From: Rhizophagus irregularis
Taxonomy: Eukaryota > Glomeromycota > Glomeromycetes > Glomerales > Glomeraceae
DNA length: 64,000 nucleotides
Direction: 5' to 3'
Assembly: GCF_026210795.1 (NCBI RefSeq)
Contig: NC_089437.1
Coordinates: 5,084,001-5,148,000, forward strand
Part shown: positions 1,805 to 59,461 of the stretch, piece after piece
How positions within the stretch are numbered: position 1 is the first letter of the stretch
Layout: each line of letters opens with the position of its first letter
Program-made: the position numbers and the translations under genes
The notes under the pieces: model-generated
Told to the model about the DNA's origin: nothing
What the model saw: the letters and a program-made list of their open reading frames with translations, nothing else
Databases searched by the model: none

Positions 1805-2560
1805 AAAAATGGGAACCGTTGTAAGTTCAGAGCAATAAGTCATTTTGCCACCCAAAAGCTGCCTAAAATCTGCAACTAAAGAAACAAACAAAATATTAGC
1901 AGACGTTACATTTTGTTAAAAATAAAAAAAAAAGACAAAGAAAAAATATTTAAACACATACTGTAATGTATTTAGGGAAAACCAGATTTTCAACCTTACC
2001 AAAATTCATATCCATAGATATTTGAAGAAACTGTCTAAAAAAAAGTAATAAAACGAAATGTTACTAGTGAAAGTTTCGTTATTTTGCTAAAACAAATAGC
2101 AAAGTAAAAAAAATATCTTACCTAAATCTAACGCATCCAGATAACTCTAAAAAAAGTGAAAATAAAATATTAGCAAACATTTTGCTAAAAGAATTGATTT
2201 AAGTAAAAAGAATACTTCACTTACCAAAATATATGTCCAAAAGACTCAAAGAATCACCTATAAAAGAAAAAAAGAAAAGAACTATTAGTAACATTTCATT
2301 AAAAGAAAAATAAAAAAAAAGTCTGAAAGGGCCAAGTTTACACCAAAATTTATTAATAAAAAACCATTTTTTCTTGGCGCTGCTGGTAACTTTCAGTATT
2401 TTGTTTTAAACATCAACTATCTAAAAAAAGAGTAAAATTGAATGTTAACAATGCTTTATTAGAATAAATAAATTCAAAAAAATATATTTTCAGATGTTTT
2501 CACCAAGTTTCTATGTATCCAAAAGGCTAAAAACAATGCCTAAAAAAGAAAAAAATGTCA
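1805..2560 (-). repeat. degenerate array of splice-site-bounded mini-units
   Basis: On the minus strand, short blocks are bounded by acceptor-like TTTTTTTAG or TTTTATAG and donor-like GTAAGA or GTAAGT. Examples are a block of about 25 nt at 2122-2146 and one of about 33 nt near 2223-2257. The DNA between blocks contains AAACATT...AATGTTT-type palindromes. The left edge at 1805 (AACCGTTGTAAGT) is repeated almost exactly near 43168, so the same family occurs twice. No long reading frame crosses it. Confidence 0.5.
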
Positions 2561-2584
2561 AAAACCGGTCATCAAGATAAAAAA

Positions 2585-2800
2585 ATTAAAGAAAAAAAAA
2601 ATGAAAACCTGAAATATCACATTCAAAGAAACTAAACACCAGAAAAAGTAAGAGAGAAGTAAGGAAAGGGTAAGACAAAGGAAATAGGAAAGTACAAAAG
2701 AAAGGGAAAAAAGAGAAAAGGGAAGAACGAAAGAAAGGAGGGAAGAACAAAGAAAAAAAGCAAGGTTTTTTTTTTTCATGTGACTTATTTGTTTGATTAT
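2585..2800. repeat. polypurine/polypyrimidine tract
   Basis: The plus strand is almost purely A and G, especially 2640-2766, with runs such as GAAAGGGAAAAAAGAGAAAA. The minus-strand reading frames here give only F/S/L/P-rich low-complexity peptides and I do not regard them as genes. Confidence 0.7.
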
Positions 2801-3679
2801 TGATCTTATCAGATATGATACGCAGTGTAATGCGATGTAACAAAATTTTTTCAAATACAGGGTTTTTTTTTTATATAATGAACATGATACATTTTGCTTT
2901 ATCAAGTAATCAAGAACATTGCATATAATGTTACTAAAAAAAAAAGTATAAAGAGAAATAAGCAGGGGCATTATGTTTCAAAAAGAAAATTGTGGTGATG
3001 ACGTAGGTAAAAGAAAGGAAAAATTACATAGGTTAAACCGGTACTACAAATTTATCTAGTTCTATACAATAAATAGTCTTTCGCTACGCTTCAAACAATA
3101 ATCTTCCTGTTATAATAATTTTCTAATGAGTTCTAAGTAGAGGTTGGAACCGGATATCAATATCGGATTTATAATCAAATTGGATTTATAACCGGGTTGG
3201 AAATTTATTAAAACAATAAACTGGTTTTAATATAACTGATTTATTCAGTTTATTATAATAGATTTGTATTATGTAGTACTAAGGTTGCCTGCCGAAACCT
3301 ATTTGGCCTAATGCCGAAAGGTGAAACCCTTATATAGTGGCGAAACTGCAAAACTGCCGAAACTTGCGAAACTGTTAAAATTTGCGAAATCTCTATAATA
3401 AGTTTATCCATGGTTTCGGCATAATAAGTATTAATATTTTATATGAGTTTCGCTATAGTTTCGCTATTCTAATCTTTTTAAACATTTTTTTTTAATTTCA
3501 AATTGTCCAATAAATTTATATGTAATTAAAAAATTTATTGTAAATTTATTGTTTTATTTAATATTTTTTATTTTATTAAAATAATAAAAAGATTATATTA
3601 CTTTGAAGTAAACTTCCCACCTATACTACCTCTGAGTTTTATAATCTAGAAAAATAGAGAAAGAAATATTAGTAACGTT

Positions 3680-4800
3680 TCTTTAATATTAAAAAAATTC
3701 TCCCACTTTTCCAACTTACATTCCAAAGTCCAGGTTCGTCCAAGGAGTCCAGAAACCTAAAAAAAAATAGAAAAAAAAACGTTAGCAACGTTTCTTTAAT
3801 ATAAAAAAAAAATCCCACCCCTCTTTTCCAACTTACACTCCAAAGTCTGGGTTTGTCCAAGGAATCTGGAAACCTAAAAAAAAATAGAGAAAGAAACATT
3901 AGTAATTAGTAACGTTTCTTTAATATTAAAAAAATTCCCCTCTTTTCCAACTTACATTCCAACGTTCGGGTTCGTCCAAGAAGTCTGGTAACCTAAAAAA
4001 AATAGAGAAAGAAACGTTAGCAACGTTTCTTTAATATAAAAAAAAAATCCCACCCTCTTTTCCAACTTACACTCCAAAGTCCGAGTTCGTCCAAGGAATC
4101 TGGAAACCTAAAAAAAAATAGAGAAAAAAACATTAGTGATTAGTAATGTTTCTTTAATATTAAAAAAATTCCCCCTCTTTTCCAACTTACATTCCAAAGT
4201 CCGGATTCGTCCAAGGAGTCCGGTAACCTAAAAAAAATAGAGAAAGAAACATTAGCAACATTTCTTTAATATAAAAAAAATCCACCCCTCTTTTCCAACT
4301 TACACTCCAAAGTTCGGGTTCGTTCAAGGAATCCGGAAACCTAAAAAAAAATAGAGAAAGAAACATTAGTGATTAGTAGCGTTTCTTTAATATTAAAAAA
4401 ATTCCCCCTCTTTTCCAACTTACATTTCAAAGTCCGGGTTCATCCAAGGAGTCTGGTAACCTAAAAAAATAAAGAAAGAAACGTTAGCAATATTTCTTTA
4501 ATATAAAAAAAAATTCCACCCTCTTTTCCAACTTACATTCTGAAGTCCAGGTTCGTCTAAGGAATCCAGAAACCTAAAAAAAATAGAGAAAGAAACATTA
4601 GCAACGTTTCTTTAATATAAAAAAAAATCACATCCTCTTTTCCAACTTACACTTCAAAGTCCAGGTTTGTTCAAGGAGTCCGGTAACCTAAAAAAAAAAT
4701 AGAGAAAGAAACGTTAGCAACGTTTCTTTAATATAAAAAAAAATCCCACCCTTCTTTTTCAACTTACATTATTCCAAAGTCCAGTTCGTCCAAGGAGTCT
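3680..4800 (-). repeat. ten-copy tandem array of 113-120-bp exon-like units
   Basis: The minus-strand donor GTAAGT occurs at ten regularly spaced places (plus-strand ACTTAC at 3714, 3831, 3950, 4065, 4185, 4298, 4418, 4531, 4645 and 4762). Each lies 37 nt downstream, on the minus strand, of an acceptor-like pyrimidine run ending TTTTTTTAG. The 37-nt block reads FPDSLDEPGLW or a variant in one frame. The remaining 75-80 nt hold the near-palindrome GAAACGTTAGCAACGTTTC. Two variants alternate (GGAGTCCGGTAAC and GGAATCCGGAAAC types), giving a higher-order dimer. A 37-nt block is not a multiple of three, so joined blocks would not stay in frame. Confidence 0.85.
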
Positions 4801-4824
4801 GGTAACCTAAAGAATAAAACCAAA

Positions 4825-5050
4825 AAAAATAAAATTTCGGTTTGGAAAACTGAAAAGAAATATAAAAAAAAAGTTTTTTTAAAAAAATTTCGGGTTAGAA
4901 AACCCAAAAAGAAATATAAAAAAAAATTTTTTTAAAAAATTTTGATTTAGAAAACCGAAAAAAAAAATAAAAAAAAATTTTTTTAAAAAAAATTTCGGTT
5001 TAAAAAACCGAAAAGAATATAAAAAAAAAATATTTTTTTAAAAAAAATAT
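4825..5050. repeat. palindromic tandem repeat inside the nested element
   Basis: Four copies of a unit of about 57 bp made of A/T runs around small hairpins such as TTTCGGTTT...AAACCGAAA. It lies between the ten-copy array and the right subterminal region of the 3280-5269 element. Confidence 0.75.
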
Positions 5051-5526
5051 TAAGGCTGATAAAAAAAATAGATTGATCAGCCAGATTATATCAATAGATC
5101 GCCAAAACTATAATATGTCATATGATATACTATGCCGAAACACCAAAACAGTTTTAGCAGTTTCGGCAGTTTTGGCAATTTCGGCATTTCAGGTGATTTT
5201 GTGAAACTAGTTTCAGCAGTTTTGCATACACCGTTCTGCCGAAACCCCTAGTTTCGGCAAGCAACTTTATGTAATACAGATCTCATTTAAATAACTAAAT
5301 ATCGATAATCTTCTCATCAGTTCTTCTCTAATCATTTCTCTTAAAAAAAAAACTAAATAACCAATGTGACAATGTCAGCTTCCATATTTTATCCTTTAGA
5401 TGTAGACTCTGACGAAAATTCTCACACCACACACTTCACATAATCATCTAAAACACGAAAAAAATGAAAAGCTAACATTGTATCTGATCGTAGTAACAAA
5501 AGTCACACCTCTTTTTTTTTCATATA

Positions 5527-7844
5527 GATGAAAATGATTCTGACCTTGTGTATTATAAAATATGTGAATATGACCTTTCTGGATCTTATAGGAAGCCCTA
5601 TACATATACTCGTAAAGGTGGAAACACATCAAGTATAATAGCCTACTTACGAGACAAACATCGTATAACCAAGGATAATTTTACCAATTATTTAGATGAA
5701 TATAGAGAAGTATGATGACTATAATTGAAATTTTTATTTTATTTTGTATTTTATAACGTAACTATTAACTAATTCACTTAATTAATTTACTTATTAGCCA
5801 AAATGGGATTACATTCATCAAACACAAGTTACCGATTATTATAGTTCTTCAAAACCATGTCCAGCCAAAAGACAAGAATTATTAGTAAGAAAATTAATTC
5901 AATTTATTATTCATTTTGTTTTGCCTCTTTACATTTTACAAAACTGATTTTTTCGTGAATTTATTTACGCATGCGAGCTAGGATTTCATATCTCATGTAA
6001 TAAAACTGCCAAGAGACTAATCCACGAAGCATATAAATAAAACTACAATCAGCTTAGCGTCTTACTTCATAGTAGTGTAATGAATATTCATCTTACTACT
6101 GATCTATGAACAGCAAAATCTTGTCATGGCTACTTGGCGTTACAGCAACTTGGCCGACCTTCAATTTTGAGTTTTGAGAAGCCCTTCTTTTTCTTGCGAT
6201 CATCTTCTATACCTAAATACAAGTGAAAGATGATGAGCAGTTGCTTTATTTAATAATTGGTATTTCGATTCGGCACAATGGTTTTTACTATTGTCACTAA
6301 CAATGGAGCTAATATGGTCAAGGGAATACGATTGTTAAATACAAATTATATTAGCAATGTAAAATGTTAACCTTGTGTCACGTACATGTTACAATTATCA
6401 GTTCAAAAAGGATTGAAGCAATGTAAAGCTATATATCGTCGTGTTAAAAGTTTGCAGGCTTTTTTCTGACTTCCTAAACAAGCTCAACATTTACACGAAG
6501 CGCAAAAAGCATAAAATGAATCCAATCAAGCTGAAGGAGATGTCCAAAGTCCTCTTGACCTTTTAACGGATGTAAAAATGAGGTGGAATTCCACCTATTT
6601 AACTTGGAAACGTCTCTTGAAATTACATAATTCAATAAGATTCATTTCAACTTCATTACTTTTCAAATCAGATCATGCCTTTCAAAAAGAAAGCAAAAAA
6701 TTAGAACATCTGTGCTTATCGGTCAGAGAAAAGGAGTAATATTTTTTTTATTATTTAATTAGTTCTATTGGTTTAAAGTTTAAACAAGAAAAAAACATAT
6801 ATATATATTCATTTATTAATCAATTATCATTTTTATTTATTTACATTATAGATTTTTGCAAGAAGTTGTAAAGTTGTTAGAACTGATCAAAATCGTAACT
6901 AGACATTTGTGTGGTGCCAACTATCCAACACTTAATCTCGTTTACCTATACATGGAATCACTTAAAAAAAATTTGCTTCAAGATCAGACAAAAATAAAAC
7001 AGTTGACACCTATTTGAAACTCGTCTATGGTAAAGGATATAAAGAAAATGATGATGTTAAAATAACTGATGATGATATACCTGATGCTAGCACCCGTTAA
7101 TAATGGCAATATACACACTGCCAATTTCATCAAAGGATAAGTGCTTGTGGTCGAGAAAAATGTGGCTGACGGGAGGAATCAGCGGGGAAATGAACGCGGA
7201 CTGAAAGTGTTGCGAAAGACACAAACAAGATGGAAGATTTACCACCGGTTAATACAACAAATTTACTTGAAAAAGTCTGAGCTGCAATATACTTGTCATT
7301 AGATAAATTATGAGCTATTCCAACAGATACTGCTTTGATTGCTACATTTCTTGATCTCTGATTTAAACATTTTAAGTGGTCAACTAATAGTGAACAAGAT
7401 AGGGTGAATTAATTGGTAAAAAAGTTATATGATGAGCTGAAAATAAACCTTCGTGTTCCAGATGACATTGAATATAGGAGTTTTGAGGAGAACAATGATG
7501 ATAATAATAATCTGTTTAGTAATCTAGAAGGAAATTTCATATAAACAAACACAGAAGAGGAAGATGAAGTGTCATGTTATGTAAAGTTACAGGATATTAG
7601 GGTTAAGGATGATCCTTTAATGTGGTGGTTAAATTATAGGGATAGTTTTCCTACCTTGGCGCAACTTGCAAGAAAATATCTTTCAATTCCAGCGACTTCA
7701 GTGTCCAGCGAACGATTGTTTTTGGATGCCAGTAACTATATTTTGGCAAAAAGAACACGTTTAGCACCTGATTTGGTGAACAAAGTTTTATTTTTAAAAT
7801 GTAATAACACCCGTTTCGAGATATTTCCTTCTCAAGAAAGTTAA
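5527..7844 (+). pseudogene. hAT transposase relic (BED finger, RNase-H-like core, C-terminal dimerisation domain)
   Basis: hAT transposases cut and paste DNA between inverted repeats. Fragments in the right order are visible: a BED-finger-like segment at 5527-5705 (KICEYD, then AYLRDKHRI), in which one zinc cysteine appears replaced by tyrosine; a mid segment at 6520-6740 with the family signature MRWNSTYL; further helical-region fragments near 6850-7010; and the C-terminal dimerisation region at 7569-7844 with SSERLFLDASNYILAKRTRL. The pieces lie in different frames with stops between them, for example one within FLDL*FKHF near 7350. It is enclosed by the hAT termini at 3138 and 8312, so it is this element's own transposase, no longer functional. 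Confidence 0.85.
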
Positions 7845-44418: not shown

Positions 44419-47080
44419 TCATTGATTTTGTTTATTACATGTCCTAGCATTGTGACCTGGTTCTCCACAAACTTTACATATATAGGTTTTCCGATTTGAT
44501 GTATTTTCGCTCCTTTCTTGTCTTTGTGTATTAAAATCACTACTAGTATTGGTATCAAGTACATTAAAAGGCGTTCTTGATGAAGACGCTTGCTGAGGAT
44601 GTTGTTGCACTTCACGTACATACAAGTTAGGATCAGATGGATTTATTGCACTATTTTTTGTACTAACATGACGTGAATTTGTCTCTGAGGCTGACTTAAT
44701 CCGTTTATTTGGTGGACGTCCACGTCGTTTCTGAACTATAGGATCTAAAATCTGTAGATTTTCTTCATTGTTTTCATCGTTGTTTGCATCTTTAATAATA
44801 TTTTTCTTGCAATTAATAAACTTATTAATCATATCAATAATTTCATTTTCACATCCCAAATCAAGAGCTAAATTAAGAGCTTTCTTCATCTTTCCAAACC
44901 CATATGCATACTTAACTTTCCTTTGTAAACATTGTTTAATATTATTTGTAAATACGTCTGGTATTCTAAGTTGCTTAAATATATGCAAATCAGTTACTAA
45001 AGCAGTATTGTTATCATTTTGTTGAAACTGTGTTACTATTCCAACAGTTTCATCTTGTAAATTTGCTTGAATGTATTGATCTTGAATATCCTCTATATAC
45101 CATCGTCTGGCAATAAGACCAATGTTAAATTTCGCCACCTTTGAATTCATCATAACTTGAAAATAATGTGAACATACAAGTCCACGATTAATTATAGCCA
45201 AACAAGTACATAAATGACCACCATCTATTAATAATATAATATAATGCTTGTAGGATTTGGTAAGGCCATAAAGTTCCCAAATTTCTATAATGTCAGACAG
45301 TTCTATTTCTTCCAATAAAAAAAATAGAGAAGTTTGCGGTCTATCCAAATGATCTTCAAGAAATCCTTCATTATAGTTACATTGATCATCGTCCTAATTA
45401 AGAAATGTAACATTTCGCATATAGTTATATGACATCAGTGGCTTTTTTTTCACTTCGTTACAAATCTCAAAACACTAAATTTTTAAAGTTTCATACCTTT
45501 ATTGTATCAATTGACTCTTTAGAAATAATCTTAGCACGATATAACAAAGAACCAAGAATTTGTTGTTGTTGAACTGACAAAATATGAGGAGTTAAATATT
45601 TCTTCATTAATTCAACAACCTTAGGAAATATGGGTTCAATAATTGAGGGTGCCTGGTTAGTTGAAAGACTTTGAAGATATGCATTATGTCGAGCCCATTG
45701 TGCTTCATTGTCTAATAATTTTTGAATTTGAATATGTAAATTACACAGTGAAGTAGTACTACCGGTGCCTTCTTTAATTAAATGGTTCATGACTTCAACC
45801 CTTTGTGTACTTTGAATACCCGCTGTACAACACTTAGTTTGATAGCATCTTGCCTATGCTTGATGACAATTATTCAAAGTTCGATTAAGATACTCTTGGG
45901 TTTGTGGATATTTTTCAAGTAATCGTGTCCAACGCCGGTGAAAATCATTCACAAATAGACTATTTTGGGTATGTAGAAATTCCTTATAAAATGATTGGTA
46001 TTCTTTGCCTAATTTACCTGCTAAATTTTTTCGTAGGTTTTCTTGAATGTGAAAAATGCAAAGAAAATGATGTGATTCAGAGAATTTTGATGTTACTGCA
46101 TTTATTAAAGCAGGATCTGCATCAGAAAATAAGCAAGTAGGCGGATTATTATTAGTTGTTTGAAGAAGACAATCAAGAAACCATTCATAACTTTCAATTG
46201 TCTCATCTTCTGATAAACATTGAGCAACAAGACGGCTTTTAGTATTATTATCAACTATGACTAAAAGAGTTAAATACATATCAAACCAATTGGTTCAGCA
46301 TGTATTATCAGTTTGTACAATATCATTATATCGCAAAAGACACTGATGCTGATTAGGAGACATCCAGAATAAGCCCACAAGACGATTATCAAAAGGATCA
46401 AGTCTTGTGTAAATAATCCACCCAGGTTCTTGATCTTTTAGCTCAAATAATTTGTTAATCATATTCTGAGCATCTCCATGTCGATTGGTAAGTGGTGATT
46501 TAAACTTTTGAATTGCATTGTAAAGATCTCTTTTATAAATATACTGATCTGGAAAACTTGCAACCAATAATGGATATATTTGTTTAGATCCCATATTTCC
46601 TTTATTAACATAGAATTCGATTCTTTCAAGTATTTCATTTGATAATTTGCGATAAGGTGCGTGTAAATGTATATCAGTGATCATACTATGATTATGTTCA
46701 CCAGTAATGCTCGTGATGCTTACTTCTGTTGATGATTTAGGCATTGTAAGATTTATATGCCATGGACACATAATTTTTCGAGATGAACGTTGTCGTTGAT
46801 GAGTTATATCAATTATTTGATTAGAAATAGATTTACCCAAAAAAGAACATTCAAATGTTCGACGTCGCACAATTCTATTATTATCAGATTCAACGCGTTT
46901 TCTTCTCAAGGAAAATCCAGCAAATTTAGCATATTGATTAAGCTTTATTTCCGCATCCTCCCATGTAGAAAATGAAGTACCAACTTTAATGTCAATATTA
47001 GATTCATCTGACATTATACCTTCTAGTTGATCATTTAGGATATTAGATACATATGTTTCGTTATGTTTATCTTTATCCAT
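44419..47080 (-). pseudogene. MULE transposase: FAR1-type domain, MULE core, SWIM finger, AT hook, CCHC
   Basis: The start chosen is the ATG at 47080 (MDKDKHNE). A FAR1-like DNA-binding region (WEDAEIKLNQYAKFAGFSL, then GEHNHSM) is followed by the catalytic core: TDNTC near 46300, FSDADPALINAV near 46085-46130 and FHIQENLRKNL near 46030, consistent with the D-D-E positions. After a GT-AG intron (45394-45496, phase 0) come a SWIM finger (CTCLAIINRGLVCSHYF), an AT-hook-like RRGRPPNKR and a CCHC knuckle (CKVCGEPGHNARTC). Two in-frame stops break it: TGA at 46295-46297 directly after the first catalytic aspartate motif, and TAG at 45854-45856 where tryptophan is expected. Otherwise the frame is complete. 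Confidence 0.9.
45394..45496 (-). other. intron of the MULE transposase gene
   Basis: Donor GTATGA follows IDTIK; acceptor TTAATTAG precedes DDDQCNYNEG. Phase 0, and the reading frame is conserved on both sides. Confidence 0.8.
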
Positions 47081-47442
47081 ACTTGTATATAATAGCAAAA
47101 TCAAATGAAAGAATAAAACAGTTGAAGTGTAAAGGATAAAGATTATAGAGAAAAGTAATGTGTTCAGCAAAATAATAATTTAAACATGTTTAATGGGGGA
47201 GAGTAATGGGAGAGTAACGGAGAGTAAGAAAAGACATAAGCCACAATTAGCCAATTAAACAATAAACAATAAATGAAACAATAGATCAAATCTCATTAGT
47301 GCGTATCATTACTAAATTTAGATAATGCACTAAGCATCTTTAAATTAATTTTACTATTTTTAAACAATAAACACGAAATTTAATAATAATAAACATATAA
47401 TGATAATATCACGTGACTGCGGTGATTTTAACCACCCGTTAT

Positions 47443-47804: not shown

Positions 47805-47964
47805 CAGTCAACTCTCTTTATAGTCACACATTTGGGACAGTCCATATTTGGTGATTATAAAGAGATGTGACTATATAAAAAATTTCTTATATTTGTATAT
47901 CATAATTCCGGCCAAAAATTAATATAATTTTAGCTAGAATTATACTTAAAACTTTATTGTATCG

Positions 47965-48350
47965 TAACTTCGCCAATATTAATCGTAGAGAGATGATCTT
48001 ACTGCCATTCGATTCGTCTTGATGAGATAGTTCTAATGGTATAAAATACGTCGAAATCCAATTACTAAATTAATTTTCAAAATTAAAAAAATATTAATGG
48101 TTTTTGTGTAATAACTCTGCCAATATTGATCCTAGAAAGACGATCTTACTACCATTCGATTCGTCTTGATGAGACGAATCTAATGGTATAAGAAACATCG
48201 AAATCCAATCACTAGATCAATTTCCAAAATTAAAAAATATTAAATGGTTTTTAAGTAATAACTCCGTCAATATTGATTACAGAGAGATAAGCTTACCACC
48301 ATTCGATTCGTCTCGATGAGGCGATTCCAACGAGCTATAAATCATCTTTT
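47965..48350. repeat. three-copy tandem repeat of about 133 bp
   Basis: Units share CCAATATTGATC, ATCTTACTACCATTCGATTC and GTCTTGATGAGACGA, and end with AAAATATTAATGGTTTTT. The same motif ACCACCATTCAATTCGTCTT resumes at 59181, immediately after the retroelement array, showing where the array was inserted. Confidence 0.85.
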
Positions 48351-48469
48351 TACAATCACTAGGTACTGAGAAATCTAGCAAAATGTAAAATGGCGCAGTA
48401 AACATAAATCAAGAAATATTATAATGCCAATGTTTAACATTTTGTTGAATAACTCGTCAGCCAGTGATC

Positions 48470-48485
48470 GGAAAAGGATAAAACT
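48470..48485. repeat. 16-bp target-site duplication, copy 1 (left edge of array)
   Basis: GGAAAAGGATAAAACT. Left of it is host-repeat sequence (CAGCCAGTGATC). Further copies lie at 56343-56358, 57260-57275, 57593-57608, 58080-58095 and 59166-59180. Confidence 0.92.
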
Positions 48486-48626
48486 AAAAAAAAAAAGCAA
48501 AAAAAACTCTCTCCCGTTCTGCTCACTTGACAATATTTACGAAAAAATAAAAAATTTTTTCGGAGTTTTTTATTACTTTTTCTTTATAATTTCTTTATTT
48601 TAGATAACTACTACGACACTTTACAA

Positions 48627-50647
48627 ATGGGTAAAGATAACAAAAAGAAAAATAACCAGTCTAACAAAGATACTACATCTAAACGTCCTGCCTCTAGCTC
48701 TCCAACTGGCAACGTTTCTGGTCAGGGTTCCTCTATGTCTGGCCCTTCGAACACTCCACCTTCGACCACCTCTACTAATAAACGTACCAGAAATGTCGAA
48801 CGATCTGTCATGGATGTTGATAAACCTCTCACGCCTCCTGGCCCTGTTGAGACAACTTCCACTGAGATACCTTCTCAACCCGATACCTCCTCTCTCGACG
48901 CTTCGCAACACGCCCCTGCTAACAACAACGATAAAGGCAAAAGCCCTGAAATTACTCCCGCAGTCTCCTTCCCTGAACGTGCTGCCTCTCCGGACGCGTC
49001 CCAAGCTGCAGTACAATCTCAACCTACACTTTTCTACGCCTCAGCCGCTCCTAATGACGTCGATGGCTTTTGGAATCACTTCGCTTCGAACCGCGACGCG
49101 TGCGACGCGGTTGATCGACAACTTTCCTTGTTCTCCTCTTATGGTAGTCGTGCCACGTGTAGTGGATCCAACGATTTGAAGAGGATCATCGTCCACTTCC
49201 GAAAAAAGGATGATCTTGACACAGCCACAGCTTCCCCTATGGATTCTTTGTTTGACTTGCATTTCAATGCATATGACCCCCAGGCTATTAAAGCAGATGA
49301 ACACGCGCGTACCCTGGTGGTTACCGACATCCCCCTTTTTATAACTGACGCTCTTTTGCGTGGTACCTTTTCCCGTTACGGCAATATTGTTCGCTGCCAT
49401 ACCCGTTTATCTAAACTTTATCGTACTGCATACATTACCTTTGAATCTACTGGTGCTTTACAGAACCTCGACTCTACCTGGGGCGTCCTTTGTGGAGGAC
49501 ATTGTTTGCGAATTTGCCCCGCTTCATCTGCCATGACCCAACGTGCTGAAAGACGCGCTTATGTTGCTTTACTTGCCGGTCTTCCACGTGGTACTATAGC
49601 GGCCGATCTTGCTGAAATTGCCGATGAAATTTCCGCTAAATCTATCAATGTTCCCTTCTCTATGAATTCCTACAATCCCAAACCTTACGCCTATTGCCAT
49701 TTTGCCTCCGAAACGGCTATGGAAAATGCTAAATCTATTTCATGCGCCCCCTCAAGAAAGTTGGCCTTACCTGGCATTCTCCGGATGAAGTCACTTCTCT
49801 TTGTCATCGATGTGGTCGCCCTAATTGTAACCCCGATCGATGTGGTTCTTCATCTAGACCTAATCGCCCTCCTCGCCCTTGGCAATCTAATGATAAATTA
49901 CGTGCTTTATATAACAAGCATCTACCTCCTTCTCATCCTGCTAAACGACATAACCGTTTTGCCCGCCCTGATAACAATAATGATGGACAAAGCCGTACCA
50001 ATGCTTCTCGCCATCGTTCTAAATCCAGAACTAATAACCGACAACAATCTCGTTCTCGTTCTCAACGCCGACCATGGAATCGCGATAATCTCAATAATAA
50101 TAATAATGATCAACGTCGTCGCATTCCTGATGAAAAGGAACTTGATTACTATATTGATGGCATGGATGTTACGTACCCTGCTCCTCCTACTATACTTACT
50201 GATTGGAAATCTATCGGTGCTGCTCTTGAAAAAGTAGTTGAAGAATTAGCCCTTCTTACCACACAATTTGCTACCATGAACAGCCGCATCACTAATTTGG
50301 AATCTGCTATGGCTGCTCGTGCTCCTATTCCTGGCCCTTTTGTTACTAAACCTCCTTCCTACATCCCTTCCTCTATGCAAGGATGGGATGATACAGTGAA
50401 TCGAAATGATAATAATATCCTCGTTGATGTTAATTCTCCCCCTTTGCAATCAACAAGTGGTTTTTCCCCGATTCCTCATTTTGCTCCCATTCCACCTTCC
50501 AACGTCGCTCCTTCCTCCCCTATTGATATGGAACAGCGTCTCTCCTCTCTTTCCGATACTGTTGCCTCTTTGGCTGGCTCGATTAAAGAAGGAATCCAAC
50601 AAAACAACCTCATCTTAGCTCGGCAACAAAGCCAAGCTAATCAATAA
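48627..50647 (+). pseudogene. LINE ORF1: RRM-like domain, CCHC knuckle, Arg/Ser-rich tail (one frameshift)
   Basis: From the ATG at 48627 the protein begins basic and Ser/Pro-rich, then has an RNA-recognition-like domain (TLVVTDIPLFITDALLRGTF, then RTAYITFES) and a second, more diverged copy (AYVALLAGLPRGTIAADLAE, then PYAYCHFAS). Near 49745-49760 the frame moves by one base. In the new frame the protein continues with VTSLCHRCGRPNC and a basic SRSQRRPWNRD segment. It ends with a coiled-coil-like region at 50647. Such ORF1 proteins coat LINE RNA. The single frameshift makes this copy probably non-functional, unless it is a base-call error. Confidence 0.85.
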
Positions 50648-50696
50648 TTGTTCTCTTTTTCCCCCTTCTTTATTACCGATTTATCAGTGTGTAATA

Positions 50697-53600
50697 ATGA
50701 TGGACAACAATAAACATGATTTTTCCCCTCACCCCTCTCCCCTTATTAAATTTGGTCAATTAAATGTTAATGGTTTATGTTCCCCAGTTCGACAACAACA
50801 TTTGCTTAATTTTTTTCTCCACTCCTCTTTTGGTGCTTTATCTATTAATGATACGCGTCTTTCCCCTTCAAATGCTAAATTTATTTTCAAAAATGAACAC
50901 TCCCAACATCACTTTAAGTCCTATTGGGCTTGTTCATCTTCTTCTTCTCGCCCTCATGATGGTGTTGGCATTTTGTTACGTAATCCCCTTCATAAACATG
51001 TTCAAACAATTGATCCTTGGAACGGTCGACTTCTTAAATTAGACTTGTTCTTTCATCAAACTAAAATTTCTATTATTTCTATATATTATCCCCCTTCTGG
51101 TTCTGTTCATCAATCTATTTGCAATGATCTTATTGCCAAACTTCTTTCTTGGCTCGATTATGCCCGAGCTAATAATTATTTTGTAGTTATTCTTGGCGAC
51201 TTCAATGTTGATGCAATCGCTCATTCTAATTATTCACCTAATCATTTTAAGCTTCTTCGCTTGCTTTCTTCTCGGTTTTTTACCGATCATCAAGCTCATT
51301 CCTCTACAAATGGTCCCTGATCCCACTTTCTTTCCGTGATAATGGATCTTCTAGACTGGATTATATTTGGTCTTCACCTGGTTTTCCTGCCCCTGGTCTT
51401 TTTTCGCAAGTGGTTACTTGCCCGGATCTTCTTGATCGTCCTTTTACAGATCACAAAGTTCTTTCAACTGTTTTTGATTTCAGTTCTTGCCTGGCTATTT
51501 TGGCTAAATCTCGTCTTAAACAAAAACAAGAATTGCGTACTATTTTCTCTTACGCTTCCACTTCAGTTGAACAATGGAATAATTTTACCTCTGAAGTAGA
51601 TGATTCTCTTGGAGTTTATTTAGATAGACAATATCGCCCTAATTTTGATTTCTCCTCTCTTTCTTCGATCGTATGTGGCATGCATTGAAAGCTGCCATAC
51701 TTAGTGCTGCTATTGAAACTTTACCCTTTCAAAAAGTCTCCAACACACACCGACATTCGTACTCTCCTGAATTAACTAAACTTATTGCTATTAACAAGTT
51801 TTTAGATCGATTTTTATATCGCCTTACTACTCGTCGTTCTAATCGGCCTACTCAGATTGCGCAAATGACTGCCGCTTTGCCCTCCCATCTTGAAAATCTT
51901 GCATCCTTACTTCCTGATTACTCAGTTCCTACTTATTCTACAACCCCTGCATCTGTATTTAAATCGTTTTTACGATCACAGAAGACTTTAGTTTCTGCCT
52001 TTTTATCTACTAAATTCGCCCAACATCTTACGGACTCAGTGGAATATTATACTGCACTACGTGACGAACACTTTTCGAACTCGCTCGGCACCTTTATCGA
52101 TTCTGCCTTATCAGTAGAAAAACGTTCAATTGTTCTTGACCGTGTTCTGGTCGTTTTGGACTCAACTCCTACTTTATTAACGGATCCTTCGGATATTAAA
52201 CATGCGGCTGTTTCTCATTTTCAATCAATTGTTTCTCCTCCGTTGGTCCACTATTCTTCCATCACTTCATTTCCCGCCCGATGGCAACAAGCTTACACTC
52301 CTTTTACAAATGTGTCTGCTTCATTATATGATCCTGTTTTGGCGCCTATTTCCCTACAAGAATGGTCTGCTGTGATTTCCTCCATGCCAAATAACAAAGC
52401 TTCCGGCCCTTCAAAAATTTCTTATGAGATGATTAAACATCTGTCCGGTGAAGCCTTGGATTTCTCTCTTTTACTGGCCAATACCTGCCTTTCTCGCGGT
52501 GATATTCCTGCTGACTGGCGTGAAGCTGTGGTTTATCCTATTCCTAAACCTCACGAATTTGATGCTCAACTCAAGAACACTCGACCTATTACTCTTCTGG
52601 AAACAGTTCGAAAATGTGTAGTTAAGGTCGTCACGAATCGTCTTTCCAACATCCTTGCTGATAATAAAATTCTTCAAGGTGGAAATTTTGCTGGTTTACC
52701 TGGTGGCTCTACTGATGTCCCTATCAAAATGCTGGATGCGATTATTCATCAACATAAACATGACTCTACTGATGATCAGGGAACTATGGATCGTTTCTCA
52801 AGATATCTCTAAAGCTTTTGATTCTATGGATTTAAATATGCTTAAATTAGCCTTAAATAGGTTACATATCCCTGCACTTTTAGTGCGATTTATTTTAAAT
52901 CTTTTTACACGACGAAATAATAAGATAATTACTTGTCATGGCGATACAGCTGCTTATAGAGTACGTGTTGGTATCGATCAAGGAGAAATCATTTCCCCTC
53001 TTCTTTGGGTTATTTATTTGGATCCTTTACTTACTGTTTTGAATCAAGAAGCACGAGATCCTTTTATTTTAAAATCTTCAGCTCTTTTAAATTACTCCCC
53101 ACTTGAATTTGAACAACATTCTTTACCAATTTCACATTTAACGTTTATGGATGATTCTACACTTATTGCTTCCTCAAAATCTGGAATAGAAGACCGTCTT
53201 TCTATTACTGCTGAATTTTATACTTTGAATAATGTTCAAGCCAATTCAGCAAAATATGTTCTTCTTTCATCCTCTTCGCCTTCTTCGGAGATTACTTTTG
53301 AACTTTCACCTTCCCTTTTAATTTCCGATATATCTCTTTCCCTTTTTTCTTTACCTCTTAAAATTTCATTTCGTTTTTTAGGAGTTTGGTTTTCTTTGTC
53401 CGCCTCTTCTGATTTTGTTCTGAAACAAGCGCGCTCCATGGTTAAAGATATGGCTGCTCTCTTGGGACCGAAGAAATTATTAGCACAACATGTGGCCTAT
53501 CTCTATAATGCTGTCCTTCTTCCGCGATTGGAATTTCGTCTTCAAACTACCCTTTTCTCTGAAAGTACTATTCAATCAATAGTCAAGCCTATGTTTTCAG

Positions 53601-56089
53601 TACTTCGAAGAAAAGCTGGTCTTGCTGCGACTACCCCGTTGGCCTTATTATTTCTCAAACTTCCATTTTCGCTTCAGAATGCTTTTTATCGATTCCTTTC
53701 TTCCCATATCGCATCTTGGCAAAAAATTTTCACTCATCCTGATTTTACAGATTTTGCCCTTTATGCTATTTCTTATCTTCAAGGATACTTGGGTGCTGAA
53801 AGTTGCCCGACTACTATTAACCTAGAACCATGGTCGCATATTGTTTCTTTACGAACGCATACCTTGTTTAATTCGCTTTTGTTTTCTTCGCGTTTGAACA
53901 TCACGTGGTCTTTCTCCTTAGGCCCCACCAGGCGTGATCTACAACCTGCTTTACCACTCCGATCTATTTTACCACATTCCATTTTTCAAACAAGTTGGAA
54001 ACTTTGGAAAAACTTGAATATATTTGTGCTTGCTCAATTGGTTTCTCCTTGTGGACGTTATCTTATGAATTGGCCTGACCTTCGTTATCTCGGCATCGTT
54101 GGTCGTAAAGGACGGATTCCTAATTGGTTTACTTTTATTAATAATAATTTTCTTTCTTCTTCCTCTTCTACTTTACTTTTATCTTCATATTTTATTAATT
54201 CTTCTTTTACTTTAGCTTCTCCTTGTTTATTAGATCATACTGTTAAAGATTATTCTTTTTATCCTCAATGGGCTATTAATTTTGACTCTCTACTCAAACT
54301 TTATCTGTTTGGTCGCGTGCGTATCACTTATAAGAAACAAAACTCGGCTATTATGTCTCATTGGCTTCCTGTTTCTACTGTGGCTGATGAACGATCCTAT
54401 AACCCTTGTCCTGGTTGTGCGGTTAACATTCCTGCCTTATCCAAGAAATCTGCCATTAAACAGCGCTGTAACAGCGAAAAGTGTTTTTTCAATGTTACCC
54501 TATCAGAAACTGTGGGCTACCCTACCAGAAATGCCAAAGTTTTCGCGGCTTATCTTCCCATTACTCTATCTACTTCATGGAGTTATGCGACTTCCTTGGC
54601 TCTTGTTCATTTTTCAAACGCTTCTCCGGCTCTTTCTCCTCTCTTTAAGGATAGAATCGATAGAATTGAAGATACTATTTTACCACTTTCGGTGCAATCT
54701 TTGTACACAGATGGTTCGTTCCATCCTGCCAATGATTCTTCGCCTTCTTCCATGACTTCTGCTTGGATTGCTCTTGATGATGATGGACTTGTTTTGGAAT
54801 CTTCTTCCATGCATCTCCCTTCTTACTTTCCTTCCGCTTTGCGCTCTGAAATTTCTGCTGTTCTATTAGGATTGAATGCTCTTTTCCGTGATTCGTCAAT
54901 CTCTATTTATACTGATTGTAGTCAGTTAATTTCACTATGGACACGGTTTGTTGATGCTCCTTTCTCACCGAAGTTGCTCCGAGAACCTAATCATCTTCTT
55001 TGGCTTTCTATTCGACAACTTATCATGGATCGTAATCTTAATGTCGAATTGATTAAAGTCCCTGCTCATGGCGATGATATCTACAATATACAAGCGGATT
55101 CTTTGGCAAAAGATGCTCATTCGTCTTTAAAACCCACTACTCTACTTTCAACATTTTGTTATGCTCCATGCGTGTTGACTTTTAACTCCTTGCCAATTGA
55201 CGTGAATATTCGACATTTTCTCCGCTCTATTGCTGATGCTCGTGCTCTTTTATCTTTCTGTTCACGCTTGCGCGTTTTACTGCTCTTGGTGCTCCTTCAC
55301 TTTTTGATTGGGCTGGTATATATTTTTGCCTTTCACAAATTAAAGGTTTTGCTTCACATAGGAATGGTCGTCCTGAATTTTGGATCTTCCGCATTAAACT
55401 TCTTTTGGATATGTTGCCTACCTTAACTACTCTTCAACAACGTAAACCTTACTTATATTCTCCTGACTGGCTCTGTCCGCAGTGTAATTCTGCTCCTGAA
55501 GATTTGAATCATCTTTGGACTTGTCCTTATATTTTACCAGAATTAAATCCTTGTTTAACGCACCGGTCTGAAGTCATTAAATTTAGAGATTCTTGTTTAT
55601 CTTCTTTCCTTTCCTTGAAATCTTTGGATAATTCCTTTCCTACCAAATTTTTTGCTTTGGATTGCTGGAACTATGAAGTTCCTTCTTCATCTTGTCTTTG
55701 GCTTACTCGAGGATTGTTGCCTGCGCATTTAACGGCATTTTTTAATCAATACTTTCCTCTCTCTCGTTATATACAAGACTATTTCTCCCCTTCTTAATGA
55801 CTTCCAAGTCGAATTATATGGTGAAATTTGGCTGTGTCGGAATGTTCTTTTCCATGCTTGGGAGGAGTCGCAGGGTATCTCGGCTGCTTCCAAATTACGT
55901 GGCCCATCTACAAATTCTTTCCCTAATACTACTTCTCCACAACAACACAACTCTTCTTTGGCGTCAGTTTCTCAGGATTCCTGGATTTCTTGGATATCCT
56001 CTTCTATAATTCGGGGTGGATCTTGGATCTCGCACTTGGATTTTCTGCGCCGCTTAACAGTTCAACCTCTTAGGATCTCTTTCTGGTAA
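50697..56089 (+). pseudogene. LINE ORF2: AP endonuclease, reverse transcriptase, RNase H, CCHC (six frame changes)
   Basis: ORF2 starts 50 nt after ORF1. Endonuclease: KFGQLNVNGL, VVILGDFNVD, then SRLDYIWSSPG and TDHKVL near 51340-51470. Reverse transcriptase: AVVYPIPKP, NTRPITLLE, SQDISKAFDSM, GIDQGEIISPLLW and the catalytic FMDD near 53146. RNase H: YTDGSFH near 54700, LRSEISAVLLG, YTDCSQ and QADSLAKDA near 55100. Zinc knuckle: CPQCNSAPEDLNHLWTC near 55478-55530. The protein continues in a third frame to a TAA at 56087-56089. Frame changes lie near 51312, 51670, 52790, 55265 and 55790, and possibly one more between domains; no catalytic residue is lost. The copy is young but broken, or carries indel base-call errors. 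Confidence 0.88.
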
Positions 56090-56342
56090 CGGACTGGATT
56101 TTTGGATGTTGGATAGTTGACTCACACTGGCCTTCGGGTAAAGTTGGGGTATGCGATTCTGTAATAGTTCAGTTTTTCTTTGCTTTAATTTTATTTTAGT
56201 TTAGATTTCTTTACTTGTATGAGTCGTGAAGCTACTCTTTTTATTTTTTATTAGTTTATTTTCTTATTTTTGTAATATTGTTCGATTATTTTTCGAAGTT
56301 CAAAATATAAATAAAAGATAACGTCATAAGACTGTTTGCAAC

Positions 56343-56358
56343 GGAAAAGGATAAAACT
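56343..56358. repeat. 16-bp target-site duplication, copy 2
   Basis: GGAAAAGGATAAAACT between the LINE 3' end (ACTGTTTGCAAC) and SINE copy b. Confidence 0.92.
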
Positions 56359-57259
56359 CCTTCCCATGACCACGGAAATAAAAAGAATTTTACTGCGGAC
56401 GCTACAACCAATAGCGTGAAGGTACAGGGATTAGTGTAGTTGGACTGCATCATGGTGAATTAGTGTGTACAGTTAGGCCGCACATTTCAACTAAGGGTCA
56501 TGGTGTCCTTCTAACGTTCCCTATGAGGCCATTGGCATGTGCGCAGTCCTGTCCTTAAGGTCACTACTATACCTTGGGGGGACTTCCTGTCCGGGTGGTC
56601 ACTCTACGATACCGCTTGGGGTCAGTAATGGCTAGATGGTCGTCCTAGATGGTAAAGCTGAGGGTGCAATGTCTTAGTGGTAGTTAGCATCCTTCGGTTA
56701 GGTCTTCGCCAAGCCAAGGTGTTCGTGCGCGATGAACGGTAGCGTAGGCATGGGGTTCGATTCCCTACTCCTTGGGTCCTGGATGATCCTGGTGGTTGAT
56801 ACCCACCATAAGGGGTGATCCTGGACAGATGCCTGCTACTTCCTGTCCAAGTGGTCACTACAAAGTATACCACTTGGGGTAAACAACTGTACTATTGGTG
56901 CTAGGTAATCGCGGGCTGTAGTGGCGCTTTGGTGAGGCTTAGTACCTAAAATGGTGGTATGGAAGGATACTTAGATGGTTGATGTTACCTGTCGAAAGTC
57001 CTCCGTGAAAGTAGATGCTCTCTAAAGGTCGTTAAATAAATTGAGTATCAGTATCGTGCAATGGGTATAGGATGAGTAGGCGGCGTGTACGCTTCAGATC
57101 AGCTAAATGGCCCGATGGGGGATGTCTTCTATAGTGGTGCTGTTACCTGAGGAATTAAGTCTTTCGGTTTAATGGTTGCCCATTGAAGATGATAGGACGC
57201 AGACCCGAAATTAGTCTCATAAGAGGCAATGGGTGGTCATGGCCGTAAAGGCATTGCGA
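56359..57259 (+). mobile_element. tRNA-derived SINE-like element, copy b (5'-truncated)
   Basis: About 900 bp, noncoding. Homology with copy e (58096-59165) starts at ATGACCACGGAAATAAAAAG, so the first tRNA-like head is missing. It keeps an internal tRNA-like module with TTAGTGGTAGTTAGCA (56674-56689, A-box-like) and the perfect B box GGTTCGATTCC (56754-56764). The motif CTTCCTGTCC...GGTCACT...CACTTGGGG occurs twice (near 56583 and 56840). The 3' end is GGCATTGCGA. Minus-strand frames through it are not genes. Confidence 0.8.
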
Positions 57260-57275
57260 GGAAAAGGATAAAACT
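57260..57275. repeat. 16-bp target-site duplication, copy 3
   Basis: GGAAAAGGATAAAACT between SINE copies b and c. Confidence 0.92.
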
Positions 57276-57592
57276 CTAAAATGGTGGTATGGAAGGGTGC
57301 TTAGATGGTTGATGTTACCTGTCGAAAGTCCTCCATGAAAGTAGGTGCTCTCTAAAGGTCGTAAAATAAATTGAGTACCAGTATCATGCAATGGATTAAG
57401 GATGAGTAGGCGGCGTGTATGCACAGCTCGATCGGCCTAAAATGGGCTCGATGGGGGATGTCTTACACATGGTGCTGTTACCTGAAAAATTAAGTACTCG
57501 GTTTAATGGTTGCCTATTGAAGATGATAGGACGCAGGACGAGATTAGAATGCCATGAAATGGATGGGTGGTCTGGCCGTAAACAATAGCAAA
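57276..57592 (+). mobile_element. SINE-like element, copy c (3' third only)
   Basis: About 317 bp, matching the last third of copies b and e: begins CTAAAATGGTGGTATGGAAG and ends GGCCGTAAACAATAGCAAA. Strong 5' truncation is typical of target-primed reverse transcription. Confidence 0.85.
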
Positions 57593-57608
57593 GGAAAAGG
57601 ATAAAACT
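57593..57608. repeat. 16-bp target-site duplication, copy 4
   Basis: GGAAAAGGATAAAACT between SINE copy c and the LINE 3' fragment. Confidence 0.92.
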
Positions 57609-58079
57609 AGATCGCAGGGTATCTCAGCTGCTTAAATTATGTGGCGTCATAAATTCATTACCATATTGTTTCTTACCATACAAATAGCTCTTCTTTGGCG
57701 ACTTTCTTATGATTCCTGGATTTCTTGGATATCCTCTTCTATAATTCGGGGTGGATCAGCTGGATCTCGCACTTGGATTTTCTGCGCCGCTTAACAGTTC
57801 AACCTCTTAGGACTTTTCTTTCGGTAACGGACTGGATTTTTGGATGTTGGATAGTTGACTCACACTGGCCGCCTGGGTAAAGTTGGGATATGCGATTCTG
57901 TAATAGTCTAGTTTTTCTTTGCTTTAAATTTATTTTAGTTTAGATTTCTTTACTTGTATGAGTCGTGAAGCTACTCTTTTTATTTTTATTAGTTTATTTT
58001 CTTATTTTTGTAATATTGTTCGTTTGAATTTTCGTTGTTAAAATATAAATAAAAATAAAGTCATAAGACTGTTTGCACA
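57609..58079 (+). mobile_element. 5'-truncated fragment of the adjacent LINE
   Basis: About 471 bp, homologous to 55869-56342 (end of ORF2 and 3' UTR): TCGCAGGGTATCTC at the start, GGATATCCTCTTCTATAATT in the middle, and ATAAGACTGTTTGCACA at the end. Scattered indels separate it from the full-length copy, so it is a separate insertion of the same family. Confidence 0.9.
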
Positions 58080-58095
58080 GGAAAAGGATAAAACT
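58080..58095. repeat. 16-bp target-site duplication, copy 5
   Basis: GGAAAAGGATAAAACT between the LINE fragment and SINE copy e. Confidence 0.92.
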
Positions 58096-59165
58096 AGGGT
58101 TGGTCACCCTATCTCGGTGGTTAGTCACTGAGACCCTCATTAAGCCTGAGTATGGTGAGGTCGCAGGTTCGATTCTATGACCACGGAAATAAAAAGAATT
58201 TTACTCGACGCTACAACCAATAGCGTAAAGGTACAGGGGATTAGTGTAGTTGACTGCATCATGGTGAATTAGTGTGTACGGTTGTGGCCGCACATTTCAA
58301 CTAAGTTCGGTCAGTCCTTCTAACGTTCCCTATGAGGCCACGGCATGTGCTGCTAGCCCCTCTCGTTGGTCACTACTATACCTTGGGACTTCCTGTCGGG
58401 TGGTCACTCACGATACCACTTGGAGTCAGTAACTGACGTGTGTGCAGGGATGGTAAAGCTGAGGGTGCAACGTCTTAGTAGTAGTTAAGGACCTTCGGTC
58501 CATGCTTAGAAGGCTGCAAGGAGTTCTGCGGCGGAACAGATAGCATGGTTATGGAGCTCGATGCCCCACTCTTGGTTCCCTGGTTGGTGATTCCCTGTGG
58601 TTGATATCCACCATATGGGAATCCCCTCACGCCTGCTACTTTCTGTCCGAGTGTCACTACATAAGATACCACTGTGAAACGAACTGTACTATTCGTCTTA
58701 GTAATCGCAGCTGTAGTGCCTTGAGTGAGACGCCGCACTTAAAATGGTGGTATGGAAGGTACTCCCAGATGGTTGATGTAATTAAAGTCGAAGTCCCCCA
58801 TGAAAGTAGAACTCTCAAAGGTTCCATAAAATAAATTGATGCCGAGTATCATGCAATGACAAGGATGAAGAGGCTTGGCGGTGGCATCTAGCACCATCAG
58901 CCTAAAATGGCTCGATGATGTCTTCTACATGGTGCTGTTACGAGGAATTAAGTACTTTCGGTTTAATGGTTGCTTATCAAGAGATAAGATGGGGCACGTA
59001 CCCGAGTTAGCCCCTCATAAGAGAACGGAATGGGGTCTACGCCGAAACAACAGCAATAAAATGAGGAAACTTGGATACTTATTACTTACGAAGATGATAG
59101 GGAACACAGACTCGAGATTAATCTCCATAAGAAAGACTGGTGGTCTGGCCGTAAACACTAGCAAA
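58096..59165 (+). mobile_element. tRNA-derived SINE-like element, copy e (longest, with pol III-type head)
   Basis: About 1.07 kb. The 5' head is tRNA-like: a D-arm with TCTC...GAGA stem at 58112-58133 (A-box-like GGTGGTTAGTCAC), an anticodon-like CTCATTAAGCCTGAG hairpin and the B box GGTTCGATTC at 58166-58175. A second, more decayed tRNA-like module (TCTTAGTAGTAGTTAAGG ... GAGCTCGATGCCCC) corresponds to the intact one in copy b. The 3' third matches copy c. It ends GTAAACACTAGCAAA. It has no coding capacity and is unusually long for a SINE, so it may be a composite of two or more tRNA-derived units. Confidence 0.78.
58112..58175 (+). promoter_or_regulatory. internal RNA polymerase III promoter (A and B boxes) of the SINE
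   Basis: The A-box-like GGTGGTTAGTCAC (58116-58128) and B box GGTTCGATTC (58166-58175) are about 45 bp apart, the spacing found in tRNA genes. Activity is not shown. Confidence 0.6.
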
Positions 59166-59180
59166 GGAAAGGATAAAACT
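59166..59180. repeat. target-site duplication, copy 6 (right edge of array, one A shorter)
   Basis: GGAAAGGATAAAACT, followed by the host-repeat sequence ACCACCATTCAATTCGTC. It joins perfectly in style with the left flank at 48469. Confidence 0.9.
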
Positions 59181-59461
59181 ACCACCATTCAATTCGTCTT
59201 AGTGAGACGATTTTAACAAGCTATGATACATTTTTGTACGATTATTAGATGCCAAGTTATTTAATATATTCTTTATATAACTGTGATTATAAACGGTTCT
59301 TTTTAATATAAGATTTTTGAGGATAGGTGTGATAGTGACTATAGATAGATTGTGACTATATAGGATAGATTTTAATAATAAAGTGTTTTGAACGTTGACT
59401 GGTGTGACTATATAGTAGAATGTGACTATAACGGGAGTGACTATAGAGGGAGTTGACTGTA

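Follow-up and report, generated by a model that had tools for sequence, protein, structure and literature searches.

Arrays of a putatively site-specific LINE and two passenger elements at a duplicated target within a DNA transposon of Rhizophagus irregularis

The classic case of a long interspersed nuclear element (LINE) at a fixed site of a DNA transposon is Tx1L of Xenopus, a member of the Tx1 clade which carries an apurinic/apyrimidinic (AP) endonuclease and inserts into the transposon Tx1D. Other transposable elements are a named target class of site-specific LINEs (PMC8869645), and most of the reported target-specific families without long terminal repeats (non-LTR) are early-branched or belong to the Tx1 or R1 groups (PMC4640811). 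R1 of arthropods, also AP-type (PMC4640811), occupies a fixed site of the rRNA genes with a 14-bp duplication, and fixed sites also harbour non-autonomous passengers, the R2 and R2/R1 short internally deleted elements (SIDEs; PMC3414825). MoTeR1 and MoTeR2 of Magnaporthe are found in arrays whose joints carry telomere repeats, and they include a passenger with LINE ends (PMC7367193). Here we describe an array of retroelements in a 64,000-nucleotide stretch of the genome of the fungus Rhizophagus irregularis (contig NC_089437.1, positions 5,084,001 to 5,148,000; C9:5084001-5148000 in our numbering), referred to as the window. The elements of this array are separated by copies of the 16-mer GGAAAAGGATAAAACT, hereafter T. 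We consider it highly probable (roughly 0.93) that a LINE is site-specific at T within a 961-bp DNA transposon, and that the duplicates of T are used again by this LINE and by two passengers, a short interspersed nuclear element (SINE)-like sequence and a gene-carrying element, so that arrays are built.

The window array consists of five elements between six copies of T, all on the + strand (Table 1). The original prediction of a full LINE, a LINE 3' fragment and three SINE-like copies in one orientation was thus borne out. Its six copies of a single 16-bp duplication held for five, which are exact, while the sixth has one A fewer or, if aligned at 59165, two mismatches. At up to three mismatches T matched the window ten times against 2.11 expected, a count attained by 0 of 100 shuffles. 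Both outermost copies continue into a single host repeat, a transposon of 960 bp that encloses the array from 47805 to 59459, in agreement with the prediction that they rejoin host sequence.

The genome searched comprised 146,748,485 bases (146.7 Mb) in 32 contigs. The published assembly of strain DAOM197198 has 32 scaffolds and 146,773,001 bases, with a mean read coverage that is uniform over all scaffolds (PMC10234402), which at the level of the genome rather than of the locus speaks against an assembly artefact. Exact T, for which the original prediction had proposed a genome-wide search, occurred 467 times (218 and 249 by strand), compared with 0 for the reversed 16-mer. All 20 regions cut around exact copies (on C1 and C6) lay, as judged by eye, within one host repeat and/or array elements, and six of them were empty sites in which the host flanks are joined over a single T. 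Near-intact empty sites numbered 236 genome-wide (at most 3 mismatches in 35 bases; control 0), and left edges of T, whether empty or filled, 469 (at most 3 mismatches in 29 fixed bases; control 0). By these figures, which come from searches of unequal stringency, as many as roughly half of all T sites are occupied. Position 2 of T was C or T in 29 of 50 one-mismatch empty sites listed, yet insertions occupy such variants too.

In L086 the host repeat measures 961 bp, and it is bounded by 23-bp inverted repeats, CAGTCAACTCTCTTTATAGTCAC and GTGACTATAGAGGGAGTTGACTG. Among nine host copies, one lacking its left and one its right end, TA preceded 8/8 left ends and followed 8/8 right ends. This is the anatomy of a non-autonomous DNA transposon of the type of miniature inverted-repeat elements, with terminal inverted repeats and a TA duplication. 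We take it to be Tc1/mariner-like, in which case it would presumably be moved by a DD(E/D) transposase of that group. T occupies positions 666-681 of this transposon. The host transposon also contains 147-bp repeat units (47954-48247 in the window). In every unit a hairpin-like TTCGTCTC-GTGAGACGA motif can be made out by eye, and T lies directly left of the last unit.

The sequence following the 3' ends of the elements was listed with queries that stop short of T, so that matches were chosen without regard to it. For the LINE, 40 of 347 candidates were scored, giving 41 matches from which 40 were cut (the window's own being left out); for the SINE-like element, 40 of 404 candidates were scored, giving 51 matches from which 20 were cut. 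T followed the LINE ends exactly in 15/40, within two edits in 34/40 and within four edits in 38/40, and the corresponding values for the SINE-like ends were 10/20, 18/20 and 20/20. Controls at up to two edits (reversed 16-mer and shuffled flanks) gave 0 for both sets. The two ends of single insertions were also compared, for nine LINE-type insertions with a variant right-hand T, by seeking left ends at a spacing of 7.87 kb or else 3.17 kb and matching ends by spacing, without reading interiors. Left ends were recovered for five (L092/L033, L095/L052, L097/L056, L099/L021 and L124/L043), and in 5/5 pairs the right-hand variant was repeated at the left end (positions 1-2: GC, GT, GC, AT, GT), the sole difference between L099 and L021 being the last base of T. 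Two further left pieces were an array start (L134) and a LINE interior (L135).

In several arrays one variant prevails among the copies of T (GTAAAAG in L104, GGGAAAG in L107, GATTAAAA in L117 and GAATAAAA in L118). Base 16 of T before elements was T in 106/124 and A in 13, rough counts from partly overlapping loci; the corresponding tally before host sequence (T in 51/53) was not used, since the host pattern itself includes that T. Labels of the element type to the left of T were set aside as well, being unreliable because the SINE pattern fits LINE ends too. The second cut thus seems to fall mostly 16 bp away and sometimes 15. Because sites occur empty, T stands behind the 3' ends and variants match at both ends, T is a target duplication that serves as target again. 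Its letters come from the target and not from the elements, as the original prediction had held on the strength of the outer flanks.

A second, weaker site, GTAAAAAGAYGATTTAT, was found in the same transposon on the opposite strand. The LINE end in L041 lies there at GTAAAAAGATGATTTAT, which reads from position 549 downward, and the left end of this insertion, 7.85 kb off, carries GTAAAAAGACGATTTAT, a duplication at both ends with one mismatch. SINE ends occur at the second site in one more transposon copy (L122, L124). Among 445 near-intact second sites, an element end directly before the site fitted 14 times (at most 2 mismatches in 28), and two of these (C29, C20) were read in context. Occupancy is about 3%, as against up to half at T. 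The motif GNAAAARGAY is common to T and the second site and adjoins the presumed first nick, which makes it our best pointer to what the endonuclease may read. Since elements stand on either side of T in arrays, little outside T seems to be needed.

These data are consistent with the following mechanism. Within T, the AP-type endonuclease of the LINE would make a bottom-strand nick where GNAAAARGAY begins on its left side, and reverse transcription would be primed at this nick (target-primed). The top strand would then be cut 15-16 bp off, leaving the 16-bp target on each side of the insertion; AP-type LINEs generally yield duplications of 10-20 bp (PMC6895275). Both copies of T would remain good targets, at which the LINE and borrowing RNAs could re-insert left, right or inside the stack, with the target setting the orientation of every inserted element. 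The first nick would fall at the left edge of T because the 3' junction is precise to 1-2 bases and copies are truncated at the 5' end; target priming and the order in which the strands are nicked are proposed from established LINE biology. Re-insertion at each new copy, one of two explanations in the original prediction, is strongly supported by the empty sites, the 3' ends, the paired variants and the second site, and the LINE endonuclease, to which the prediction ascribed the recognition of T, is its probable agent judging from the encoded domains.

Table 1. Features of the retroelement array and its host transposon in the window
Feature	Coordinates	Strand	Evidence
Host DNA transposon, left part	47805..48485	+	23-bp left inverted repeat 47805-47827, TA before; runs through target copy 1; 961-bp repeat compared with 8 other copies
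Target copy 1 (exact)	48470..48485	+	16-mer match
Full-length LINE, 7,857 bp	48486..56342	+	ORF1 RRM; ORF2 AP-type endonuclease, reverse transcriptase, RNase H; copy frameshifted; 0.9% from 3'-end consensus
Target copy 2 (exact)	56343..56358	+	16-mer match
SINE-like copy, 5'-truncated	56359..57259	+	Consensus 78-969 of 979; 3.2% diverged
Target copy 3 (exact)	57260..57275	+	16-mer match
SINE-like 3' piece, 317 bp, 5'-truncated	57276..57592	+	Consensus 664-979; 9.0% diverged
Target copy 4 (exact)	57593..57608	+	16-mer match
LINE 3' fragment, 471 bp	57609..58079	+	5.4% diverged
Target copy 5 (exact)	58080..58095	+	16-mer match
Full-length SINE-like copy	58096..59165	+	Consensus 1-978; 11.0% diverged, the highest in the array
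Target copy 6, one A lost (GGAAAGGATAAAACT)	59166..59180	+	16-mer comparison
Host DNA transposon, right part	59181..59459	+	Right inverted repeat 59437-59459, TA after

Four copies of the LINE were read, with lengths of 7.83-7.86 kb. Open reading frame (ORF) 1 encodes 673-674 amino acids (aa), is open in L090 and L091 and contains an RNA recognition motif (RRM). ORF2 carries an AP-type endonuclease (PF03372, E 1.4e-10 in L089), a reverse transcriptase (RT; PF00078, below its cut-off in L089 and above it in the window, E 3e-12) and an RNase H (PF00075). The nearest solved structures to the RT were LINE-1 ORF2p and then R2. The ratio of nonsynonymous to synonymous substitution rates (dN/dS) of ORF1 was 0.15-0.37 in six comparisons among four copies, two of them partial. 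With an endonuclease and an RT, one target and a 15-16-bp duplication, the LINE fits a site-specific AP-type non-LTR retrotransposon. A 2024 curation of transposable elements in R. irregularis distinguishes SINE, L1-Tx1, L1-R1 and other LINE groups (PMC11075540); the L1-Tx1 and L1-R1 families that it names in this species were not matched to the present LINE, and the terms 'site-specific', 'nested' and 'insertion site' do not occur in its main text. Among the open-licence papers listed in literature searches, none dealt with the system described here as judged by title and abstract start.

One LINE copy at T (L012/L120; G000:C1:3259700-3269699) stands apart, with a 5' part of 67-81% identity and about 5.5 kb of non-LINE sequence. 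A second LINE family at this locus was considered and rejected, as the far end should, by position alone, coincide with the LINE end of L011 on C1. We read L120 as a single LINE copy that has taken up a large insertion and whose 5' part has diverged. Outside the array, a 291-aa open frame on the - strand (46295-47170 in the window) resembles by eye a FAR1/MULE-type zinc-binding protein.

The first passenger is SINE-like. Its 979-bp consensus was built on 15 full-length copies, which are on average 0.90 identical in pairwise comparison. It has the attributes of a SINE, being short and putatively non-coding, with 5'-truncated copies and T at both sides. ARAGORN gave 0 matches to a tRNA head in the window and 8 loci, and Rfam no significant match to a known RNA in the window stretch and 4 loci. 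The consensus contains a B-box-like GGTTCGATTCC twice, with a spacing of about 400 bp, which would suit a composite of two tRNA-like units, a composition confirmed by neither tool. Neither the SINE nor the LINE consensus ends in poly(A), and the last 60 bases of the two share only an 8-bp match, a length reached in 133/500 shuffles. This lack of a shared tail would be expected if the SINE-like element were moved by a different, unseen LINE with the same target T, for which the diverged 5' part of the L012/L120 copy might also be cited. However, LINE and SINE agree in sites, duplication and orientation, share arrays at T and both occur at the second site, and none of the sampled T sites that were read showed a clearly separate LINE. 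We therefore regard a different LINE as unlikely, and mobilization by the present LINE as the better account.

A further alternative concerns the growth of the arrays, in which only the first insertions would be site-specific and enlargement would proceed mainly by unequal recombination between elements. A few neighbours are indeed very similar (0.7% in L108 and 1.7% in L103), and the MoTeR arrays of the blast fungus grow and shrink by break-induced steps (PMC7367193). On the other hand, SINE distances within arrays (0.0709, 59 pairs) match those between arrays (0.0735, 1,552 pairs), with 255/1,000 label permutations giving a value as low in a test of 60 pieces of at least 200 bp from 25 loci, so that growth by local duplication is unsupported. 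The members of an array are unequally diverged and are truncated at different points, and neighbours differ also in type. Recombination as the main source of the arrays is accordingly quite improbable, although it may have trimmed or enlarged some of them. Growth in one direction was also considered. L102 seems younger at the right (8.5, 6.4, 5.7, 3.3), and in 19 loci with at least two SINEs the leftmost was the younger one in 12, as against 7 for the rightmost, many pieces missing one or both array ends; the rank correlation was positive in 9/12 loci with at least three SINEs. This split does not support one-directional growth and allows a weak leftward bias at most. The last bases of T run ACA, ACA, ACT, ACT in L111 and ACA, ACA, ACT in L113, a pattern that would follow from one insertion creating an ACA/ACT pair and a later one hitting its left copy. 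On balance, the arrays are best explained as insertions of different age that arose independently and came to be stacked.

A single complex reverse-transcription event, in which several RNAs were linked through a shared primer site and all six copies of T were written at once, the other explanation in the original prediction, would account for the uniform orientation with T at each joint. We give it practically no credence, given the unequal divergence in the window (0.9, 3.2, 9.0, 5.4 and 11.0% from left to right, the SINE consensus including the last copy) and the single insertions and empty sites found at the same place elsewhere; a host 16-mer at every joint would also not be expected from template jumping. 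As little can be said for T as a 3' tail carried by the elements, the reading proposed by the original prediction in case copies always ended in it (which is nearly so among those examined), because T also stands left of elements, occurs alone in empty sites and follows target variants at both ends, and second-site insertions carry second-site sequence at both ends.

The second passenger, which shares the site with the LINE and the SINE-like element, carries a gene. Three copies measure 3.17-3.23 kb (L101 1625-4852, L102 610-3775 and, reoriented, L115 427-3595), in which approximately 93 bp at the start and 440-500 bp at the end are LINE sequence and the interior is not. Read from MASSHDF, its frame stays open over 776 codons (L130) and 774 codons (L131), the final stretch of L131 being out of register with L130; in both loci the left T lies within the host transposon. 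A genome search with a 476-aa query (89 of 303 candidates scored, 91 matches) returned, among the candidates scored, nine matches of at least 471 aa at 89-100% identity, including the query's own locus. Matches of another group, many of them in open frames, covered parts of residues 250-476 at 33-40% identity. As far as identity tells, this group is a large family of proteins encoded elsewhere in the genome and not by the passenger, and the C-terminal part of the passenger protein resembles it. Searches of Pfam and PDB with the protein gave no significant match. Pairwise dN/dS was 0.24-0.52 in six comparisons among four copies (two partial and frameshifted further on), values in which CpG effects and saturation are unmodelled, and the protein seems to have been under constraint during the spread of the element. 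The LINE protein probably moves both passengers, to judge from the shared site and, for the second, from the shared ends.

Several observations weigh against a LINE confined to T that serves both passengers. At four edits the reversed 16-mer matched 3/40 LINE and 15/20 SINE pieces, so that matches at 3-4 edits (four LINE and two SINE: L025, L037, L044, L051, L061 and L079) are weak on their own. Two LINE ends were exceptions, L042 with a worn T only and L041 at the second site, and rare other targets could be missed in a sample of 40 LINE and 20 SINE ends. Left ends were not found for 4/9 insertions tried at the 7.87-kb and 3.17-kb spacings. At least one odd copy of T occurs in each of L104, L105, L106, L107, L111, L112, L113, L116, L118 and the window, which we read as later mutations or junction bases. 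Each of the four LINE copies read has a disrupted ORF2 (approximately 2197 to 7589), which makes activity of the LINE putative. Finally, as the SINE and the LINE lack 3' similarity, the case for mobilization of the former by the latter comes down to the shared site.

Taken together, the locus may represent a community with four levels: a DNA transposon as landing pad, a LINE, a tail-less SINE-like RNA recognized by something other than its 3' sequence, and a LINE-ended element whose sole product would come from a captured gene that has its relatives in a large host family and is maintained by purifying selection. We offer this picture tentatively, as possible rather than probable; if true, it would imply a LINE-borne gene that does a job for the element or for its host. 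Hundreds of copies of T, up to approximately half of them filled, together with natural single-base variants and a weak second site, amount to a ready-made experiment on the specificity of the LINE endonuclease. The tail-less SINE bears on how LINE proteins pick foreign RNAs, and the gene-carrying passenger on gene capture by retroelements. About half of the R. irregularis genome consists of repeats (PMC11075540), and a transposon as landing site would be a way of spreading with little harm in this plant-symbiotic fungus.

The original prediction had called the array a candidate for undescribed behavior, which is too strong in general, since site-specific LINEs that form arrays or enter transposons are already known. 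The present LINE is a site-specific element of a known kind, comparable to Tx1L, R1 and MoTeR, and the variant is new. With Tx1L it shares an AP-type endonuclease and a fixed site within a DNA transposon; it differs in its RNase H, in a small non-autonomous target and in arrays with two kinds of passenger. With R1 it shares the AP-type endonuclease, a fixed site and a constant duplication of similar length, and the SIDEs are likewise hybrids with the R1 3' end at the R1 site, but the present target is a transposon instead of ribosomal DNA, the duplicated target is re-used in stacks, and passengers are frequent in the arrays read. Stringent-type LINE-dependent SINEs (PMC3747384) resemble the first passenger as short non-coding elements that apparently use the insertion machinery of a LINE; the present one has no shared LINE tail and no poly(A), is site-specific and is about 1 kb long. 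The MoTeR elements are similar in their head-to-tail arrays with a target repeat at the joints and in a passenger with LINE 5' and 3' ends and an unrelated interior (PMC7367193). MoTeR1, however, is directed at telomeres and its putative endonuclease is restriction-like, and the interior of MoTeR2 is without obvious function (PMC7367193), whereas here the passenger gene has a dN/dS below 1 and a SINE-like passenger is present in addition.

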